Of a DNA stretch of 33,889 nucleotides, positions 3,371 through 27,480 are shown one piece after another; position 1 is the first letter of the stretch; every line of letters starts with the position of its first letter. Below the pieces are notes generated by a model. The model did no database searches and was not told the origin of the DNA. It was given only the letters and a program-made list of their open reading frames with translations. The stretch is from contig SXKJ01000106.1 of assembly GCA_005778115.1 (NCBI GenBank), forward strand, positions 1 through 33,889, written 5' to 3'. The DNA comes from Planctomyces sp. (GTDB lineage: Bacteria > Planctomycetota > Planctomycetia > Planctomycetales > Planctomycetaceae). A program made the translations under genes and the position numbers.

Positions 3371-3465
3371 GAGTGAACTCTCCTGAGTAGTTGGGGAACC
3401 GAGGCGGACGAAGCATATCAGGCACGGCCAAAGATGGGAGTTCGGCCGAAAGCTCCGAGAGATCA

Positions 3466-3536
3466 CCGTACCGCGACCGTCAGGGAGCGGCCTGTCGTCA
3501 CCTGAGCGTGGCCGCTCCCTAACGGTCGCGGTACGG
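3466..3536. repeat. Palindromic doublet element, GTAC-foot family, copy 2
   Basis: CCGTACCGCGACCGTCAGGG continues into AGCGGCC on the left and is inverted at the right end with a single mismatch (about 26 of 27 positions pair). It shares its core arm with 1-67. It lies between the divergent DJ-1 and EVE genes, 64 bases before the EVE start, so it may also be in the EVE leader. Confidence 0.85.
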
Positions 3537-3599
3537 AGATCGAATTGTCGCTAGAGCAAACTCATCAACGCCGCCAGAATCTCGCCGAAGGAAACATTC

Positions 3600-5998: not shown

Positions 5999-6020
5999 GT
6001 TCCTGACAGATTCAGGCGAG

Positions 6021-6080
6021 CGGGGCGGCGTCAGCTCCCCGCTGAATTCGCAACAGGACCGGGGGGCTGACGCCGCCCCG
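6021..6080. repeat. GC-rich palindromic doublet element
   Basis: CGGGGCGGCGTCAGCTCCCC (6021-6040) is inverted at 6061-6080 with one mismatch. Each arm can also close on itself through GGGG and CCCC. It lies 23 bases after the ATP-grasp stop and could help end or stabilise that transcript. It has no GTAG foot. Confidence 0.8.
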
Positions 6081-6151
6081 CGCGCCCGTCTCAATCTTGG
6101 TCCTGCGGAACCTATTCACTGTGGAATACGAACGCCCTTGAGAAAACCCCC

Positions 6152-11532: not shown

Positions 11533-12129
11533 ATGCTGTGGTTGAAACGACTGCTGACTCCGCCGTTGATTGTGCTCGCGGCGCTCCTGATGTGGATCGA
11601 GGAGTTGCTGTGGGAGCAACTGAAAGTTCTCACGGCTTGGGTCGCCAAGTTCCCCTTGTTCAAGTGGGCCGAGCGGCTCATTCAGCGTCTGCCCCCCTAT
11701 CCGACGATGGCGGTGTTCCTGTTGCCGGGAGCCGTGCTCTTTCCGGTGAAGCTGGGGGCGGTGTGGCTGATGACTCACGGTCATGTGCTGCCGGGAATCG
11801 GCGTGATCGTGGCGGCGAAAGTCATCGGGACGGCGGTGGTCGCGCGGTTGTATGTGATCTGCCAACCCAAGCTGATGACGATCGGTTGGTTCGCACGGCT
11901 GCATGACTGGCTGACGAGGACGCGCGATCGGCTGTATTCGGCGATTCGAGCGATGCCGCTGTATCAGGCGACGCGGGCCAGGCTGTCGGCGATCAAGCAA
12001 ACGGTCAAACGTATGCTGCATGTGATGCGCGGACGGCGCGGAATCGGTGCTCGCTGGCGAGCAATTCGGCGATGGCTCCGGCGGCGGCGGCACCTTCGCC
12101 GACTACGTAGGTCAGCCTTTCCAGGCTGA
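11533..12129 (+). CDS. Small conserved membrane protein with Arg-rich tail
   Basis: This is a 198-residue protein. It has an N-terminal hydrophobic segment (5-25), the core PYPTMAVFLLPGAVLFPVKL (55-74) with two more membrane segments, and VIVAAKVIGTAVVARLYVIC leading into PKLMTIGWFARLHDWL. I recognise this pattern from uncharacterised bacterial membrane proteins of similar length, without known function. The C-terminus is strongly basic (RRWLRRRRHLRRLRR). The last residues and the TGA stop lie inside a GTAG-foot palindrome (12107-12204), so the original C-terminus may have been altered by its insertion. The RBS is a modest GGGA. Confidence 0.75.
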   Translation: MLWLKRLLTPPLIVLAALLMWIEELLWEQLKVLTAWVAKFPLFKWAERLIQRLPPYPTMAVFLLPGAVLFPVKLGAVWLMTHGHVLPGIGVIVAAKVIGTAVVARLYVICQPKLMTIGWFARLHDWLTRTRDRLYSAIRAMPLYQATRARLSAIKQTVKRMLHVMRGRRGIGARWRAIRRWLRRRRHLRRLRRSAFPG

Positions 12130-12204
12130 CTGTCTTCGCCAACGACGCAGATCGAAGACTCACGCCGCCAGCATCGTCGGGTCAGGCTGGAAAGCCTGAC
12201 CTAC
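12107..12204. repeat. GTAG-foot REP doublet supplying stop codons of two convergent genes
   Basis: The left arm is GTAG then stem GTCAGCCT-TTCC-AGGCTGAC. The right arm read from its own foot is GTAG then GTCAGGCT-TTCC-AGCCTGAC. The arms differ only by a swapped C-G pair, so both stems are perfect. The TGA of the plus-strand membrane protein (12127-12129) is in the left arm. The TAG of the minus-strand MBL gene (12201-12203) is the right-hand CTAC. Confidence 0.9.
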
Positions 12205-17075: not shown

Positions 17076-20000
17076 TCATTCCTTCGAGATCGTCTCGTCC
17101 AAGTTGAGCAGCAACGACGCCAGGCTGGTGAACGCCGCGAGGTCCGCCGGCTTGAGCTTGTCGTTGGCCTTCGATTCGCCGACAGCGATCAGCTTCTTGG
17201 CTGCAGCGTCATCTGCCGTGAACAATGCGCGGAGTGACTGCAAGCGGCGCGACAAAATTGCCAGCTCATTCGGAGTTGGAGCGCGAGACGTGCAACGACG
17301 GAAGGCTTCGCTCAGCCGCGACTCGTCATCGGCCGCGGGGCCGAGCAGCACTCGTTGAGCGAGCGAGCGTGCGGCTTCGACGAACGTGACATCGTTGAGC
17401 GTCACCAGCGCATGCAGCGGCGTGTTGGTCCGCGCGACTTTGACTTGGCAAGTCTGGCGAGTGGCGACATCAAAGAAGAGCGTCGGGCCGACGATGCGTC
17501 GCCAGAATTGGTAGAGGCTGCGGCGATACAACGCCTCGCCGGTGTCTTGCTGATAGCCGATCCGGCCGAAGGTCGCTTCCTCCCAGATGCCGGGAGGCTG
17601 ATAGCCCTTCACCGGCGGGCCTCCTTGTTTCTCGACCAACAGGCCGCTGATGGCGAGCGCTTGATCCCGAATCATCCAGCTTGGCAGCCGGTATCGCGGC
17701 CCGCGCGCGAGCAGGCGGTTGTCGGGATCACGCTCAGAGGCATTCGTAGGATGGGCACTCTTGCCCGTTCGCGTGTCGTCGTTGGCGTTTGCCGCAGCCT
17801 CGTCGGATGGACGGGCAAGAGTGCTCATCCTACTCGCCTGCCGATACGTCGCGCTGGTCACGATCAAGCGGATCAGTCGTTTGACGTTCCAACGCGGGTT
17901 CGCCAACTGAACGGCGAGGTTGGGATCGGGGCTTTCGGCCAACGGCTCTCGGCTTTCGGCGAACTCCGTGGCCAGCCAGTCGAGCAATTCGGGGTGTGCG
18001 GGCTTCTCGCCTTGAACACCAAAGTCCTCAGTCGTCTTCACGAGCCCTATGCCGAAGAACGTCTGCCAGTACCGATTGACGGTGACGCGCGCGGTCAGCG
18101 GATGATCGGGCGACATCAGCCAGCGAGCGAGAGCCAAACGATTCGTGGCGGGCTCGACCGGTTGCGGCAGGACGGCGGGTAAGCCGTGTGTGACCTTGTC
18201 GGCGTACTTGTCGTATGCGCCGCGAACGAGGATGAACGTGTCTCGCGGCTGTGCTCGTTCGCGCATCACCATTGTGCGCGGCAGTCCGCGTTCAAATCCC
18301 TCGCGAGCTTTCTTGGCATCGTCGGCCGTTCGCCGAGCTGTCAGCAGCGTTGGTTCGTTGTTGAGATAGAACTCGGAGACCGCTTTCTTTTGGGCGTCAT
18401 TCCGTTTGTCGGCGGCGATCTTGAGTGCCTCGCGGACCGCGGCCGGCATCGGTCGCAAAGACGCGACTGGCGATGTCGTTAGCGACAATCGGAATCGGCC
18501 GAGCACATGCGCGACGTGGATTGATTGAAACTCCAAGCGGATGCGAATCGTTGTCTCAGCGTCATTCGCGGCAATGAGTGCGCGCGGTTCGAAGAGGGCG
18601 ACATGAGGCTTGCCGAACTCGTTGGCGATGGCCCAGCCGGTGTCGTTGCGGCCGTCAACGGCGTTGGCGGGCGGGAAGGTGGGTTGCTCGTAGTCGGCTC
18701 GGATCGCGGACAACTCGACCGGCTTGTCGTTGAGGAATAGTTTCAGTTCGGACAGTACGAAATTGCCGTTGTCGGCTCGGCCGGGGCCTTTGTTGACCAG
18801 CGAGTCATCGGGCAGGGCTTCGAGTTGAATCCCGGTCAGCCCGCTCAGTTTTGTTTTCAAAGACAGCTCGAATGCATCCTTCGCGGGGTTGTCGCCACTC
18901 GCGAGCAAGCTGTTGTCCTCCAGCTTCTTGAGCGTTGCACCCCCTTCAGACTTCAAGGACTCAATGTCCAGCACCGTCCATATCGGCTCGGCCACGCTGC
19001 CGGAGGCGACGAGCGACTTTTCCCATTCGGCTTGCGACTCGCGCAGCTTGCGGTCGAGTTCGTCGCGTGATGTGTTCGCGGCAGTCTCGGAGGCGCGAAG
19101 TTCGTCGAGCTTCTTCTGCTGTTCCGGTCCAGCGAACGTGATGATCGGATTCGCGAGTCCGCCAGCGTCGTTTGCGCCGCTCTCTTCGATCGAGTTGAAG
19201 AATGCCGAAAGCTGGTAGTACTCCTTCTGAGCAAGCGGATCGAATTTGTGGTCGTGGCAGCGACAGCAGTTAAACGTCAGCCCCATCCAGATGGTGCCTG
19301 TGGTCTCGACGCGGTCTTGGACGTAATCGACACGCGACTCTTCGGCGATGCGGCCTCCTTCGCCGTTGATCATGTGGTTGCGATGAAAGCCGGTCGCGAT
19401 GAGTTGGGGCTGTGTGGGATTCGGCAACTGATCACCGGCCAGTTGCTCGATCGTGAATTGGTCGAACGGCAGGTTGTTGTTGAGCGCGTCGATGACCCAG
19501 TCGCGCCAGAAATACATCGTGCGGGTGGGGTCGCCCTGATAGCCATTCGTGTCGGCGTAGCGGGCAGCGTCGAGCCATTCCCAAACCATCCGCTCGCCAA
19601 AACGCGGCGATTTGAGCAGGCGATCGACCACTCTCTCATAGGCGTCCGGCGATTGATCGGCGTGAAAAGCCTCGAGTTCCTCCAACGTCGGCGGCAGGCC
19701 GGTCAGATCGAGCGTGACGCGGCGCAGCAACGTTTGCTTGGCTGCTTCCGGCGAAGGCGCGAGTCCTTCTTTCTCCAAACGCGTACGGACGAAGGCGTCG
19801 ATGGGATTGTTCGTAGTTCCGCCTTTCGGCGGTGCTTTCGAACCGCCTAAAGGCGGAACTACGAACTGCGGCACCGCTGGTCGGCGGATTGGTTCGAACG
19901 CCCAGTGCTTGCCCCATTTCGCTCCGCTGTCGATCCAGGCGGCGAGCAATTCCCTTTGCTTTGACGTCAACTTGCGTCCCGACTTCGGCGGCGGCATCAC

Positions 20001-20324
20001 CGCATCTGGATCGGTTGAGAGGATGCGTTTCATCAACTCACTGTCGCCGCTCTTGCCCGGCAGAATGATCGGCTTCTCGGTCCGCAGTGCGCTCTCTTGC
20101 TGATCGAGCCGTAAGTCCGCCTCGCGCGACTTCGCGTCCGGGCCGTGACAGGCAAAACAAGTGTCCGACAGGATTGGCAGAATGTCCCGTGAGAAGTTCG
20201 GCGGCTCGGCGGCGGGGAGTGTCGACAGAATCATGTGACACAAAATCATAAAAGCCAAAACCGCCGCGGATCGTTTTCGTCGCCGGCGACTGATTCCGTC
20301 TGTTTTCATGATTTTGTGAAACAT
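17076..20324 (-). CDS. PSC1-DUF1549-DUF1553 planctomycete haem-domain protein
   Basis: This is a 1,082-residue exported protein. Residues 1-39 are a signal peptide (RRRRKR at 13-18, then a hydrophobic AAVLAFMILCHMIL). The PSC1 cytochrome-type domain follows with DTCFACHG (haem motif C56-x-x-C59-H60) and VMPPPKSGRKLT. DUF1549 spans about 173-380 (NPIDAFVRTRLE, RRVTLDLTGLPPT, and a second CxxCH at 353-357 in NCCRCHDHKFDP). A variable central region precedes DUF1553 (about 735-1005; LARWLMSPDHPLTARVTVNR, DNRLLARGPRYRLPSWMIRD). Roles in complex carbohydrate or redox metabolism are suspected, not proven. Three palindromic elements lie inside the gene: in the signal peptide, at about 153-172 and at about 831-860. 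The start is 9 bases after the upstream PQQ gene stop. Confidence 0.92.
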   Translation of the reverse strand: MFHKIMKTDGISRRRRKRSAAVLAFMILCHMILSTLPAAEPPNFSRDILPILSDTCFACHGPDAKSREADLRLDQQESALRTEKPIILPGKSGDSELMKRILSTDPDAVMPPPKSGRKLTSKQRELLAAWIDSGAKWGKHWAFEPIRRPAVPQFVVPPLGGSKAPPKGGTTNNPIDAFVRTRLEKEGLAPSPEAAKQTLLRRVTLDLTGLPPTLEELEAFHADQSPDAYERVVDRLLKSPRFGERMVWEWLDAARYADTNGYQGDPTRTMYFWRDWVIDALNNNLPFDQFTIEQLAGDQLPNPTQPQLIATGFHRNHMINGEGGRIAEESRVDYVQDRVETTGTIWMGLTFNCCRCHDHKFDPLAQKEYYQLSAFFNSIEESGANDAGGLANPIITFAGPEQQKKLDELRASETAANTSRDELDRKLRESQAEWEKSLVASGSVAEPIWTVLDIESLKSEGGATLKKLEDNSLLASGDNPAKDAFELSLKTKLSGLTGIQLEALPDDSLVNKGPGRADNGNFVLSELKLFLNDKPVELSAIRADYEQPTFPPANAVDGRNDTGWAIANEFGKPHVALFEPRALIAANDAETTIRIRLEFQSIHVAHVLGRFRLSLTTSPVASLRPMPAAVREALKIAADKRNDAQKKAVSEFYLNNEPTLLTARRTADDAKKAREGFERGLPRTMVMRERAQPRDTFILVRGAYDKYADKVTHGLPAVLPQPVEPATNRLALARWLMSPDHPLTARVTVNRYWQTFFGIGLVKTTEDFGVQGEKPAHPELLDWLATEFAESREPLAESPDPNLAVQLANPRWNVKRLIRLIVTSATYRQASRMSTLARPSDEAAANANDDTRTGKSAHPTNASERDPDNRLLARGPRYRLPSWMIRDQALAISGLLVEKQGGPPVKGYQPPGIWEEATFGRIGYQQDTGEALYRRSLYQFWRRIVGPTLFFDVATRQTCQVKVARTNTPLHALVTLNDVTFVEAARSLAQRVLLGPAADDESRLSEAFRRCTSRAPTPNELAILSRRLQSLRALFTADDAAAKKLIAVGESKANDKLKPADLAAFTSLASLLLNLDETISKE
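17746..17833. repeat. GTAG-foot REP doublet inside the DUF1549/DUF1553 gene
   Basis: GTAGGATGGGCACTCTTGCC (17746-17765) is inverted at the right end (17812-17833) with one mismatch. The short stem is GGGCA with TGCCC around CTCT. The spacer is about 44 bases. Read on the minus strand it encodes about residues 831-860 without a stop, in the variable segment just before the conserved DNRLLARGPR motif. Confidence 0.85.
19809..19866. repeat. GTAG-foot REP doublet, TTCCGCC family, copy 2, inside the DUF1549 gene
   Basis: GTTCGTAGTTCCGCC is inverted at 19852-19866, the same family as 11405-11467. Arms fold as CCGCC-TTTC-GGCGG and CCGCC-TTTA-GGCGG. On the minus strand it encodes FVVPPLGGSKAPPKGGTTN, filling the linker between the PSC1 domain and the NPIDAF start of DUF1549. 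The spacer TGCTTTCGAA resembles that at 22924-22985. Confidence 0.9.
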
Positions 20325-20332
20325 GATTTTCT
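20221..20332. repeat. 112-bp palindrome that encodes a start codon and signal peptide
   Basis: Left arm 20221-20252 (GTCGACAGAATCATGTGACA then CAAAATCATAAA) is inverted at 20303-20332 (TTTTCATGATTTTGTGAAAC and on). A second copy of equal length is at 27369-27480. On the minus strand the right arm encodes MFHKIMK, the core encodes the arginine-rich stretch, and the left arm encodes FMILCHMILST of the DUF1549 protein. The left arm differs from the usual arm by TT to GA, which turns an in-frame TGA into TGT. Confidence 0.88.
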
Positions 20333-20333
20333 C

Positions 20334-23300
20334 TTACTTGATCCCTTCAAACGTCAGCCGGTGCAGGTCGCGTTCAATTTGGACGTCGATGGTTTTGTCG
20401 GCGAAGTTCGGGCGAATGTCGGCGTAGTTGTTGCGATCGGGACGGAGGCCAGTCTCCAGCGGCAGGACTCGTCCGTTGCGTTTGTCCAAGACCGAGACAT
20501 GGAACTTCGCGACATCTCCCGGCCGCTGTTCCAGTCCGACGAAGTTATGCACACGCGCGGCGAGCAGAAGGGCCGGCGAATCCGCTGGCTGAGCGGCTTG
20601 GACTCCCTGCCATTCGAGCTTCGTCGTCCACAACTGTTTTCCCGTCGCGCGGTCGAAGGCGAAGGCGGGGCCATGCACGCTCCACTGGTCGAGATACAGC
20701 ACACTGATGCGAGGCCGTGATTTGTCCGGCGCGAGCGGTTCGTCGGTGTGTGTCAGCAGCAGCCAACGCTCGCGGTCGCGGAGCACCACGAAATGCGTGA
20801 CGTGTTCGATCGGCGGCAGGTTTTGTTCGAGCAACCGTTCTCCGTTGCGCAGCGACCACAGCGTGAAGCGGCCGTTCGGTTCGAGCACCGCGACGATGTC
20901 GCCCAGCGACACACACGGCAGCGAGCCGCGCGGGAAGCGTTGCGTCAGCAAGTCTGTGTTGAGTAACGGATCAAACAGCCGGAGCTGGCGATCCTCTTCG
21001 AGCGGCGTCCATGTCAGCATCAGTCGGCCGACGGTTGCGATCTGCGTGGCGGCGGCTCCCGCCTGACGCGACAGCAGCCGGCCGTCGAGCGCGCTGAGTA
21101 CATAGACGTCGCGAGTGTCCTGGCTGGTTGCGATCACGGCACGATCATCGCCAGACAACTCGCAGCCCAAGGGCAATCCGTCGAATATCCAGTGCGGCTC
21201 GCCAGTCGCGAGTTCGGAGGCGATCAAGCGATGACCGGCTTGATGGCAGACAACATCGTGGCCAATGAACGCGACGCGGCCGAAGGGGCGATCGGAAGAA
21301 TCTTTTATACGGAACTGATCCGGCATCCCCGGTATCGGCACCGGATAACGGCGTGCTCCGGGCGCGACCTGCGATTCGAGCCGGCGGTCAAAGAGCACGT
21401 TTTGCCACATCAGTCGCGGCTCGAGCGGTTCAGTTGCGTCTGATTTTTCGGCGGACGAATTCTTTTCGTTCTCCTTCCCCGGCGCCGGCGGCACGGTGTC
21501 GAGCACCAGGAATCGCTCGCCAAGGTTCAGCACCAGCCAGCGACCATGCCATGCGGCCGACATTCCCAGGACCAATTGGGTCGAGTGGTTCTCGAACGGC
21601 AGTTTCGTTCGCCATTGCTCGCGGCCGAAGCTGTCGCGAGCGACTAATGCTCGGCCGACCGCGTCGCGCCACAACTGCCAGTTCTCGTGAGCCGCATCGA
21701 GAGGCGCGGACCATTCCCAATGAGCCCACGCATTCAATGGTTCGTTGGTCCCGACCCGTTCGGATGTCAGCGGCTGAGCGGGCCAGTCGGTGGCCAAGCG
21801 ATCGGAGAATTCCGCGCGCCATTGAGCGGCCAACTCGCGCCCGGTCTTTCCGTCAAGGCACGGTTCGGCGGCGAAGCGAGTCGCCAGCGAGTCGAGCAAC
21901 GGCCGAGCCATCTCGACTTGTCCCAGCGACAACCATTGCTGAGCCAGCCGTGCGGTTCCGAATGCTCCGCCTTCCGTCAGCAGCAGCGACTCGAATTTAT
22001 GCCGATGTCTGCGCGGATCAATCCGCCCGATAAGCGATTGCCGCGCGGCACTCGCCGAGTTGCTCCAGCCAAACAACGCGAGGAAATCGCGCAAGCGTGC
22101 GGGACCGGAACTCTCCAGCGCGATGCGCAAGCGTGATTCGATTTCCTTTCGCAAGATGTCGCGGTCTTTGTCCGGCATCGCGGCGTGCAGTTCGAGTAGC
22201 TCGGCCGCGATCCAGCGATCCTGGCGAGCGGACGTCGCGCCGTTGTCGATTTCCAATTCGCTCGACGGTTCCCACGCATCGGCGAGCTTGAGCAGTTCGC
22301 GAGCCCCCAACAGCCACTCGCCACGACGTTGAAAGCTGGCCGCTCGCAGCCGAGCAAACAACAGTCGTTGCTTCGGATCATCCAGCAGCGATTCCAATTC
22401 GCGGATCGTCGATTCGAGATGGGTCGCTTGTCCGAATCGGACTTCTTCCAGCAGGATGCCGGCCAGCGCCTGTTTGGCTTCCGAGGTCGGGCTGATCGCG
22501 ATGGCGCGACGCAAGTCTTCCAGGCCACGCGATCGCAGCCCCAGATGCAAATTCATCCGCCCCCGTTCTTCCAAGGCTCGCGCGTTGTCCGGGTTCTTCA
22601 GCAGGTCGGCGGCAAGGGCCCGCTGCTGCTTGCTCAATTCGGGAAACGCGGCGACGTGCGTGGCGGATTGCGACACCAGCCGGCCATTCGCGGCGATCAG
22701 GTTGCCGAGCAGCTCTTTGACGGCGACCTCGCGCCGCGCCAATGTGCGGCCGGTGGCAGCCTCGATGCTCACCACTTCGCCGTTGAGTTGCGGCAGGTGC
22801 AGCACCCCGTCCATCATCACGCCGTGTCCCAACGGAGCCGCGATCGACACTGTTCGCGGCCAGGCGGGTTTGCCATCCGACAGTCGCACCGCGCGGACTT
22901 CATTGGGGCCGACGATCAAGACCGTAGCCACAGGCGGCTCGCCTGTGGCTTTCGAACCTTCGACAGGCGAGCCGCCTGTCGCTACGTCGGCGATCCCCGC
23001 CAGAAACAATCCTTCGTCACGCGGTTGTTGCCACAGCACATGGCCGTCGCGTGCGTCGAGACACAGCAGCACGTCCGCATCGGGCGGAGCGACCAGCAAG
23101 TGATCTCGAACCGCCACCAACACGCTTTGATGCCACGACGACTCGAAAGCCATAGCCGGCGGTTGAAACGGTGAGAATTGGATTTGGGGGCGAGGGAATG
23201 GATTCCGAGGGAGTCGCTCGACCGGGTCACGATGCACGCTCTGCCAACGCAACTCGCGCCGCATGGGATCAACGGCGACGATGGTTCCCGCTCCGGTCGG

Positions 23301-25028
23301 GCAGATCACGCAGTCGCCAGCAATCGTTGGACTCAGCCCGACATCATGCACCAAGCCGCTCCAGATCGGGTCGCTGGGGGCGAGCGTTTGCATCCACAAC
23401 AGCTTGCCGTCGCGCGGATCGAGCACCGCCAATCGCAAGTCGATGCCGTCGTCCGTCAGCACATACAACCGTCCGCGCCACGGCAACGGCGGGCCGAGAA
23501 AGAATGCTCCCGAACCGAGCAGTTCATAGTCGCCGCGCGGTCCACCAATCTCCCAGCGGAGTCGCCCGGTCGCCGCTTCGATGGCGATCAACTTGTTGAA
23601 CTCGCGCGTCACGAACATGCCCCGCCACGCCGCCTGCGGGGCACGCAAGCTGGCTTCTCGTTCTTGCAGCGCGAAGACCAACTCACCGTTACTGCTGAGC
23701 GTTCCGTTACCGACATCTTCCCACACCCGCTCGTGCAGCCAGCTTTCCAGTTCCGACGAGATCTTTCGGGATGTTCGGCCGCGACGACTGTCGGTCAGCA
23801 TCTCCGCCAACTCAGGCTCGACCATCGCCGAATGCCACAGCGGTTGACCGTCCGAAAGGCGGAAGGCTCGCAACTGCGAAAGCGTCCGCACGACGACCGT
23901 ATCGCCGACGACGATCGGCTGCGCGGCGATGATCGCTGGCCGTTCCATCTGCCGACGCCGTTCAATCTCCGAACGAACTTCGGTGCGAGCATGCCCCCAC
24001 GCGCCCCGCAGCAGCGTTGGCGAACGATCCGAATTCAGTTCGTTGGGGGTGTCCGTGCTCTCTTCCGCCGACGGTTCGTCGTCGTCATCCAGCAACATGT
24101 GCGACCATGCGACATGCTCGGCCGGGACTGCCGCCGCCGCGAGCGCGTTTCGCGCCGCGTTGCCGGCAACGAGCGGCCACTCATCACGCCGTTCGCCGGT
24201 GGCTCGCAGCGGACGGACGGGGACTCCGGCCCAGCGATCGAACCAATCCAACGCCTCGGCATCGCTCTTGAAGAGTGTCAGTTCGCCACCATCACGCCGC
24301 TCGACTGATCGCTCGCCGAGTGACTTCTTCAACTCGATCAGCACCGAGCGGCAGCGCTCGTCTTGCCCCGCCAATCTCCAAGCCAGTGCGAGACGCAGTG
24401 ACAACAACGGCTCACGCACCGCACGCGAGTGCGGCCAATCGCGGACTTCCTGAAATCGTGACGCCGCCGCCAGCGGTTCGCCGAGATCCAGTTCGCGCAG
24501 CCCCAACGTGATCGTCGCGTCGTAACCGGCTGACGTGTGAAAGAACCGCCGCGCGACTTCTTCGACTTCCAGCCAATCGGCGTCAGCGACCGCGGCGCTC
24601 AATTGCACTCGCGCCCCTTTTCCGACCAGCACCTCGTAGGCTTGCCGACCTTGAGCCGACATCCCACCGATCAACCGCCGAGCTTCCCCTTTTAAGCTGT
24701 GTCCCACAACACGCCGCTCGCCAGCAGGGGGCTCTAAGAAGACATCGTCGGTTTCCGGAGCGTCCTCGGTTTCCGATCCATCATCGAGCAACGATTGCAG
24801 AAGCCGCAGTGCCTGCGACTCATCCGGCTTGTCATTCGGTTCGCGCGGGGCCAGCAGTTGCCTTGCCTGTTCGAGTCTCTGCACCAACCGCCGCTCGCGC
24901 GCGGGGCCGGGATTGTCGGCCTCGCTAATCGGAGGAGCCGGTGCCTGAGCCGACACATCCAGCGCAGCGGTCAACGCCAGCATCAGGACGAGCAGATTCA
25001 GCATCCGTGCCGATTGGGAACTCTGCAT
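20334..25028 (-). CDS. Giant PQQ-propeller/TPR exported protein
   Basis: This is a 1,564-residue protein. A signal peptide (LNLLVLMLALTAAL, ending near DVSA at 27) precedes a helical region to about 260. PQQ-type blades follow to about 800 (ATGRLRWEIGG, DPRDGKLLWMQTL, DARDGHVLWQQPRD, AATGRTLARREV). A TPR-like helical region covers about 800-960 (NARALEERGRMNLHLGLR, GLEDLRRAIAISP). A second propeller follows to the end (LATGEPHWIFDG, ALDGRLLSRQA, DRATGKQLWTTKLEW). No catalytic domain is visible, so a periplasmic scaffold or sensor is likely. ATG 25028 has AGGAAG eight bases upstream, preferred over the in-frame start at 25055. A palindromic element is in frame at about residues 682-702. The DUF1549 gene follows 9 bases downstream. 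Confidence 0.88.
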   Translation of the reverse strand: MQSSQSARMLNLLVLMLALTAALDVSAQAPAPPISEADNPGPARERRLVQRLEQARQLLAPREPNDKPDESQALRLLQSLLDDGSETEDAPETDDVFLEPPAGERRVVGHSLKGEARRLIGGMSAQGRQAYEVLVGKGARVQLSAAVADADWLEVEEVARRFFHTSAGYDATITLGLRELDLGEPLAAASRFQEVRDWPHSRAVREPLLSLRLALAWRLAGQDERCRSVLIELKKSLGERSVERRDGGELTLFKSDAEALDWFDRWAGVPVRPLRATGERRDEWPLVAGNAARNALAAAAVPAEHVAWSHMLLDDDDEPSAEESTDTPNELNSDRSPTLLRGAWGHARTEVRSEIERRRQMERPAIIAAQPIVVGDTVVVRTLSQLRAFRLSDGQPLWHSAMVEPELAEMLTDSRRGRTSRKISSELESWLHERVWEDVGNGTLSSNGELVFALQEREASLRAPQAAWRGMFVTREFNKLIAIEAATGRLRWEIGGPRGDYELLGSGAFFLGPPLPWRGRLYVLTDDGIDLRLAVLDPRDGKLLWMQTLAPSDPIWSGLVHDVGLSPTIAGDCVICPTGAGTIVAVDPMRRELRWQSVHRDPVERLPRNPFPRPQIQFSPFQPPAMAFESSWHQSVLVAVRDHLLVAPPDADVLLCLDARDGHVLWQQPRDEGLFLAGIADVATGGSPVEGSKATGEPPVATVLIVGPNEVRAVRLSDGKPAWPRTVSIAAPLGHGVMMDGVLHLPQLNGEVVSIEAATGRTLARREVAVKELLGNLIAANGRLVSQSATHVAAFPELSKQQRALAADLLKNPDNARALEERGRMNLHLGLRSRGLEDLRRAIAISPTSEAKQALAGILLEEVRFGQATHLESTIRELESLLDDPKQRLLFARLRAASFQRRGEWLLGARELLKLADAWEPSSELEIDNGATSARQDRWIAAELLELHAAMPDKDRDILRKEIESRLRIALESSGPARLRDFLALFGWSNSASAARQSLIGRIDPRRHRHKFESLLLTEGGAFGTARLAQQWLSLGQVEMARPLLDSLATRFAAEPCLDGKTGRELAAQWRAEFSDRLATDWPAQPLTSERVGTNEPLNAWAHWEWSAPLDAAHENWQLWRDAVGRALVARDSFGREQWRTKLPFENHSTQLVLGMSAAWHGRWLVLNLGERFLVLDTVPPAPGKENEKNSSAEKSDATEPLEPRLMWQNVLFDRRLESQVAPGARRYPVPIPGMPDQFRIKDSSDRPFGRVAFIGHDVVCHQAGHRLIASELATGEPHWIFDGLPLGCELSGDDRAVIATSQDTRDVYVLSALDGRLLSRQAGAAATQIATVGRLMLTWTPLEEDRQLRLFDPLLNTDLLTQRFPRGSLPCVSLGDIVAVLEPNGRFTLWSLRNGERLLEQNLPPIEHVTHFVVLRDRERWLLLTHTDEPLAPDKSRPRISVLYLDQWSVHGPAFAFDRATGKQLWTTKLEWQGVQAAQPADSPALLLAARVHNFVGLEQRPGDVAKFHVSVLDKRNGRVLPLETGLRPDRNNYADIRPNFADKTIDVQIERDLHRLTFEGIK
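22924..22985. repeat. GTAG-foot REP doublet inside the giant PQQ gene
   Basis: The left arm is GTAG then CCACAGGCG-GCT-CGCCTGTGG. The right arm from its foot is GTAG then CGACAGGCG-GCT-CGCCTGTCG. Both are perfect nine-base stems that differ by one swapped C-G pair. The spacer is CTTTCGAACCTT. On the minus strand it reads DVATGGSPVEGSKATGEPPV, in frame within the PQQ protein. Confidence 0.92.
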
Positions 25029-25107
25029 GATCCGCTTCCTGTCGTCGAGAACCACGAACGCACGGAGACCGCCGTGTCACCGTGATCTTACGCGGCGCGG
25101 ACGAGTG

Positions 25108-27368: not shown

Positions 27369-27480
27369 GTCGACAGAATCATGTTTCACAAAATCATGAA
27401 GGCAGAGGGAGCTGATTCTCGACGTTATCCTCGATTGGCCCAAGCCTGCGTTTTCATGATTCTTTGAAACATGATTCTGT
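27369..27480. repeat. 112-bp palindrome, second copy
   Basis: GTCGACAGAATCATGTTTCA continues to CAAAATCATGAA and is inverted at 27451-27480 with two or three mismatches. Length equals that of 20221-20332. Its plus strand reads MFHKIMKAEGADSRR and, 28 residues on, ends at TGA in the right arm, which the other copy has lost. It lies between the divergent ppa and macrodomain genes. Confidence 0.88.

Follow-up and report, generated by a model that had tools for sequence, protein, structure and literature searches.

In-frame GTAG-type REP doublet in a surface turn of a planctomycete PQQ-propeller protein, with different palindromes at the same protein loops across the genus

A 62-bp segment at positions 22924-22985 of the analysed stretch of planctomycete DNA (33,889 nucleotides, hereafter the window) is a GTAG-type REP doublet, i.e., a BIME-like inverted pair, read in frame inside the gene of a large PQQ-propeller protein. 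Comparison with close orthologues identifies it as an insertion, and structure models place it in a surface turn joining two strands of a BamB-like propeller, not in a core strand. The turn, as well as loops in a DUF1549/DUF1553 protein and in MutS, holds different palindromes in different genomes of the genus, so that repeat DNA has landed time and again in certain protein loops. Overall, we consider it probable that the doublet entered a tolerant loop in frame, by RAYT movement or copying combined with loop tolerance, and that repeat families were exchanged at such loops.

The repeat, its host gene and the neighbouring gene

The segment reads GTAGCCACAGGCGGCTCGCCTGTGGCTTTCGAACCTTCGACAGGCGAGCCGCCTGTCGCTAC (GTAG...CTAC), with the GTAG heads forming the outer ends of the inverted pair. 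The first half (22924-22947, plus strand) consists of a GTAGC head and the hairpin CACAGGCG-GCT-CGCCTGTG, the inverted second half (22962-22985, minus strand) of a GTAGC head and the hairpin GACAGGCG-GCT-CGCCTGTC, the head being followed in each by an 8-bp perfect stem with a 3-nt loop. The arms of the doublet (24 nt each, 16 nt between) are 96% complementary. A C is favoured at the -1 flank of GTAG, and the doublet boundary is compatible with 62 or 64 bp. Compared with shuffled sequences, the folding of a single half gave z = -4.0 and that of the whole doublet (minus strand) z = -9.4. A detector of GTAG...CTAC pairs returned 6 doublets in the window and 0 in the reversed-sequence control, and the 7.4-Mb genome contains the stem family 'ACAGGCGGCTCGCCTGT' (family E below) in about 30 places (41 matches on the two strands together, E ≤ 0.001), so the doublet is not a product of chance. 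Four features of GTAG-type REPs and BIMEs were found, namely GTAG directly 5' of a hairpin, dispersed copies, inverted pairing, and mostly intergenic placement (of the doublets of all families taken together), along with the features of RPE-like elements, a preserved frame without stop and absence from close orthologues. The first-pass annotation had reported a REP doublet at exactly this position.

The host gene (20334-25055, minus strand) encodes a PQQ_2/BamB-like beta-propeller protein of 1,573 aa with a helical middle part. On the minus strand the segment is read in frame as VATGGSPVEGSKATGEPPVAT, more precisely as V-ATGGSPVEGSKATGEPPVAT, i.e., the 20-residue peptide of the first-pass annotation preceded by one V. 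The adjoining gene (17076-20324, minus strand; 1,082 aa; PSCyt1, PSCyt2 (DUF1549) and PSD1 (DUF1553) domains) contains the two further in-frame doublets that had been proposed for it, both on the minus strand, and both genes of the pair are therefore hit. One of these (17746-17833; family D, GTAGGATGGGCACTCTTGCCCG) lies in the DUF1553 loop between SATYRQ and DPDNRLLARG, the other (19813-19862; a third family, GTAGTTCCGCCTTTAGGCGG) in an N-terminal loop, which in the orthologues is mostly occupied by AAATCTC-type tandem repeats. Such repeats fill this DUF1549 loop in frame in L091, L097, and L090, where the window has the REP doublet.

Other repeats were also observed in the window. Two copies of a longer inverted repeat with ACAGAATCATGTTTCACAAAATCATGAA arms lie at 20224-20333 and 27373-27480, one of which extends across the boundary between the PQQ and DUF1549 genes and supplies the initial residues of the called DUF1549 ORF. 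More inverted repeats (GTACCGCGACCGTCAGGGAG..., GGCAGGTTGAAAACCTGCC...) are located at 1-67, 2742-2816, and 3461-3541, with similar stems inside the DUF1553 paralogues L168 and L228. At 12107-12204, a putative gene (ORF 11533-12129, plus strand) enters a GTAG doublet and ends there, and the repeat may supply the end of the frame.

Filled and empty turns in the propeller gene

Close PQQ orthologues were recovered from 11 of the 12 genomes of the genus, G006 having distant paralogues only. In the following, G000 is the genome of the window, and the loci L090-L099 were paired with the genomes by match length and ORF length. The orthologue in G010 (L061, 89% identical protein) carries the same insert as the window, spacer included, while those in G007 (L062, 90% identical) and G008 (L063, 88%) have a short turn and no insert. 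The site reads ..GGGATC-(T/G)CCCAC-GACGAGGC-GG.. in G007 and G008 and ..GGGATCGCCGAC-(62 bp)-GG.. in the window, which corresponds to a net gain of 54 bp (62 bp in, about 8 bp of target replaced) with the frame kept. As filled and empty states are found among orthologues that are 88-90% identical, the segment is an insertion into the propeller gene.

Outside the genus, all 25 sampled orthologues (from other genera of the family) have a turn of 1-3 residues. When the variable N-terminus and the indels of the two most distant orthologues are set aside, the large core inserts in the alignment of the 11 orthologues, three in number and each of them palindromic, are virtually confined to this turn. 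The turn is occupied in G002 (L066) by a 65-bp doublet of another GTAG family (GTAGCCACGCTCGCCAGAGCGTGG) and in G009 (L065) by a palindrome of a non-GTAG kind. A second kind of palindrome without GTAG head (GGCGAGCGGGGCGGCGTCAGC...) is present in the window at 6015-6086, and palindromes related to it were seen inside the PQQ and DUF1553 loops of other genomes of the genus (L065, L093).

The model of an insert-free orthologue (L091), whose best structural matches are BamB propellers, has two strands (311-316 and 321-325) with four residues between them. The model with the insert, that of the window protein, shows strands at 310-315 and 338-342 (residues 683-688 and 711-715) with coil of a pLDDT of about 31 between them; this model, covering 1,200 aa, is of low overall confidence (pLDDT 47, pTM 0.33), and its local strand pattern alone was used. 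The surface loop suggested by the first-pass annotation is thus what the models point to, and structure and orthologues together indicate that the segment does not belong to a conserved core strand present in all orthologues.

Recurrent filling of shared loops

In order to see how often doublets fall inside genes, we used a census of 1.15 Mb of contigs (80 stretches, half taken at regular contig numbers and half being long contigs known from earlier hits). With all families counted, it yielded 81 doublets, and the reversed control gave 19 at the census threshold. These are mostly intergenic, and 11 of them lie inside open, coding-like frames. The arbitrarily chosen half had none of its 27 doublets in genes and the long-contig half 11 of 54, a share that may be inflated by the choice of contigs. 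In-frame doublets are strongly enriched in DUF1549/DUF1553 genes: 5 of the 11 fall within 17 such ORFs (43.5 kb; binomial P about 5e-5), and the 20 DUF1553 loci ranked 31-50 by profile score, a few of which overlap long census contigs, hold 9 in-frame doublets in 8 genes. A profile-HMM insertion map of the DUF1553 paralogues placed different REP families at the same few loops, notably at model positions 158, 297, 480, 550, and 574. With 121 PF07587 matches in the genome, these paralogues (L141-L170, L218-L237, L049) were seen to carry many in-frame GTAG doublets of several families at few shared loops.

Other in-frame hosts are MutS, a GH2 protein, an IMS-type polymerase, a DUF2126 protein, a ketoacyl synthase, an M81 peptidase, and a cytochrome c protein. 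The idea of the first-pass annotation that long exported proteins tolerate such inserts agrees with the enrichment in DUF1549/DUF1553 genes, but MutS, the IMS-type polymerase, the ketoacyl synthase and the DUF2126 amidoligase proteins, all expected to be cytosolic, are hit too; export is therefore not required and accounts for only part of the pattern.

The length is divisible by three in 5 of the 27 distinct in-gene doublets of this genome, so changes in the flanks would generally have preserved the frame, in the way seen in the PQQ gene with 62 bp in and 8 bp out. In each of the six clear gene cases, the first arm of family E is translated as TGGSP or SGGSP, even though heads of different length shift the GTAG phase; in this small sample, the uniform reading suggests selection at the peptide level.

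Two further loops could be followed through the genus. Four genomes (G000, G008, G009, G011) have family D (GTAGGATGGGCACTCTTGCCCG) in the DUF1553 loop between SATYRQ and DPENRLLARG, and two (G007, G010) have family B (GTAGGTCAGGCTTTCCAGCCTGAC). The loop of G002 holds a non-GTAG palindrome, those of G001 and G003 hold tandem-like sequence. In the MutS gene of G000 (L034, 1988-2053), a doublet of family E, the same family as at 22924-22985, lies just upstream of Walker A. Among the MutS orthologues (L304-L313), the loop of G008 has family E, as in G000, those of G007 and G010 have family B, and that of G011 has a further GTAG family; other palindromic or tandem sequence occupies it in G001, G003, G004, G005, and G009, and G006 has almost no insert.

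The concatenated nucleotide tree (FastTree) was (G000,(G008,(G007,G010))), with supports of 0.998 and 0.997. On this tree, MutS family E and DUF1553 family D are likely ancestral to the four genomes, with B having replaced both on the G007/G010 branch; the replacement is likely rather than proven, since single-gene trees disagree and the four lineages are nearly equidistant, close to a star. The PQQ insert, present in G000 and G010 and absent from G007 and G008, does not fit the tree as a single gain, so a loss or an exchange between lineages must be added. No recombination tract that would explain the insert common to G000 and G010 was seen in 150-bp windows.

According to the explanation we favour, REP units would be moved as single-stranded hairpins by RAYT/TnpA-REP transposases, or copied from other REPs. 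In the propeller gene, the doublet would have taken the place of about 8 bp at the turn linking two strands, a net gain of 54 bp that left the frame intact. Most landings inside genes presumably break them and are lost, while those in tolerant surface loops that keep the frame could persist as nearly neutral, flexible extensions rich in Gly, Ser, Pro, and Thr. A few loops may be so tolerant that successive lineages would hold different palindromes in them, one family being exchanged for another.

Sixteen Y1_Tnp matches were found in this genome. RAYT genes with REP doublets alongside are present here and in relatives (L024 with family F; L020 and L198 with family B; L212, L215, L217), and family B has a RAYT flanked by B doublets in G007 (L198). 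We also observed that REP doublets or hairpins adjoin the RAYT loci L024, L020, L009, L180, L198, L212, L213, L215, and L217, on one side or on both, with a stem sequence particular to each locus. The REPtron arrangement, in which REPs of one family flank a Y1_Tnp gene, was thus found for other families, but neither this genome nor the RAYT loci examined in relatives yielded a RAYT flanked by the family 'ACAGGCGGCTCGCCTGT' hairpin (the assemblies are incomplete). For this reason RAYT-driven movement is an indirect, though preferred, explanation for this family. GTAG together with its hairpin is recognised by TnpA-REP enzymes, which cut close by, mainly at CT, and the mechanism of REP movement is still called poorly understood (PMC8266576).

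The same observations might be explained more simply if the loops were weakly constrained regions of variable length that gather any DNA, REPs being frequent there merely due to their abundance in the genome, with no need for site preference or exchange. Extra residues are expected to be tolerated in loops, and several lineages have tandem repeats without GTAG hairpins in the same loops; we rate this reading somewhat below an even chance. The PQQ turn, however, is not freely variable, as it always has 1-3 residues in the sample from outside the genus, and the confinement of large core inserts to this turn, all three of them palindromic, also argues against indiscriminate filling. A slightly less probable reading, which goes beyond tolerance, is that a resident hairpin attracts RAYT cleavage or recombination and is replaced in place, the loops being exchange sites for REP families. 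It would account for the DUF1553 and MutS loops, where the G007/G010 branch has B in place of the D or E that the tree implies as ancestral, and where the D and E doublets of G000 and G008 would be common by descent, spacers included; the flanking of a family B RAYT by B doublets in G007 is in keeping with it. Loss followed by fresh insertion would nevertheless give the same pattern, no intermediate was seen, and the near-star relations of the four genomes and the conflict among single-gene trees count against it. That certain loops in proteins of this planctomycete genus serve as lasting exchange sites, with PQQ, DUF1553, and even MutS loops being rewritten from a pool of mobile palindromes, is accordingly put forward tentatively.

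That each family tends to keep a single reading frame in genes that are not related (TGGSP...TGEPP in the case of family E) could also mean that the palindromes are kept for a role at the RNA or protein level, such as translation pausing or a functional linker. We find this improbable, as purifying selection alone can give a choice of frame and homologous loops hold other families, tandem repeats, or nothing. An assembly or binning artefact might be suspected in a draft metagenome-assembled genome of 515 contigs whose close relatives are themselves recorded as MAGs, but the insert is found in a separate assembly (G010; L061/L090) in diverged sequence and with an open frame, and such an origin is highly improbable. 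The preferred reading is still entry in frame into a tolerant loop, with families exchanged. If it is true, bacterial proteins, a core protein of mismatch repair among them, repeatedly gain new loop sequence from mobile repeat DNA, and REP movement could be studied by comparing such loops when filled, empty, or swapped.

Comparison with known systems

Several elements of this picture are already published. Intragenic GTAG/CGTC REPs have been described as GTAG-headed palindromes, often inverted dimers, that encode 20-30 aa and are in many cases located in DNA-repair genes, with loops and linkers proposed as tolerated sites, and in one recorded case the recB genes of two Xanthomonas species have different REPs in nearly the same position (Di Nocera et al. 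2013, PMC3733652). New here are the empty-site comparison with its net length, the recurrent filling of the same loops with families that vary within a single genus, the exchange deduced from the tree, and the concentration in DUF1549/DUF1553 genes; no paper linking these genes to REPs was found in the open-access literature.

The elements of Di Nocera et al. resemble ours in being GTAG-headed inverted dimers inside ORFs, with a DNA-repair gene among the hosts. In contrast to that study, the insertion is defined here by empty and filled orthologues, three loops have different palindromes by lineage, a family of DUF1549/DUF1553 paralogues is preferentially hit, and exchange of families is inferred on a tree. 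Rickettsia palindromic elements (RPEs) are likewise palindromic repeats found in frame in genes of unrelated function (PMC3733652), but those of R. conorii considered in that paper terminate in CGTC, whereas the doublets reported here are GTAG-headed and inverted, and the genome has RAYTs. With REPtrons, represented by the group 3 REP of S. maltophilia (PMC8266576), the doublet shares the GTAG head, the 8-bp perfect stem, and the 3-nt loop; it differs from them in that no cognate RAYT was found for its family and in that the copy at 22924-22985 lies inside a gene. As in REP/RAYT systems, this genome has RAYTs bordered by REP doublets, in this case those of other families.
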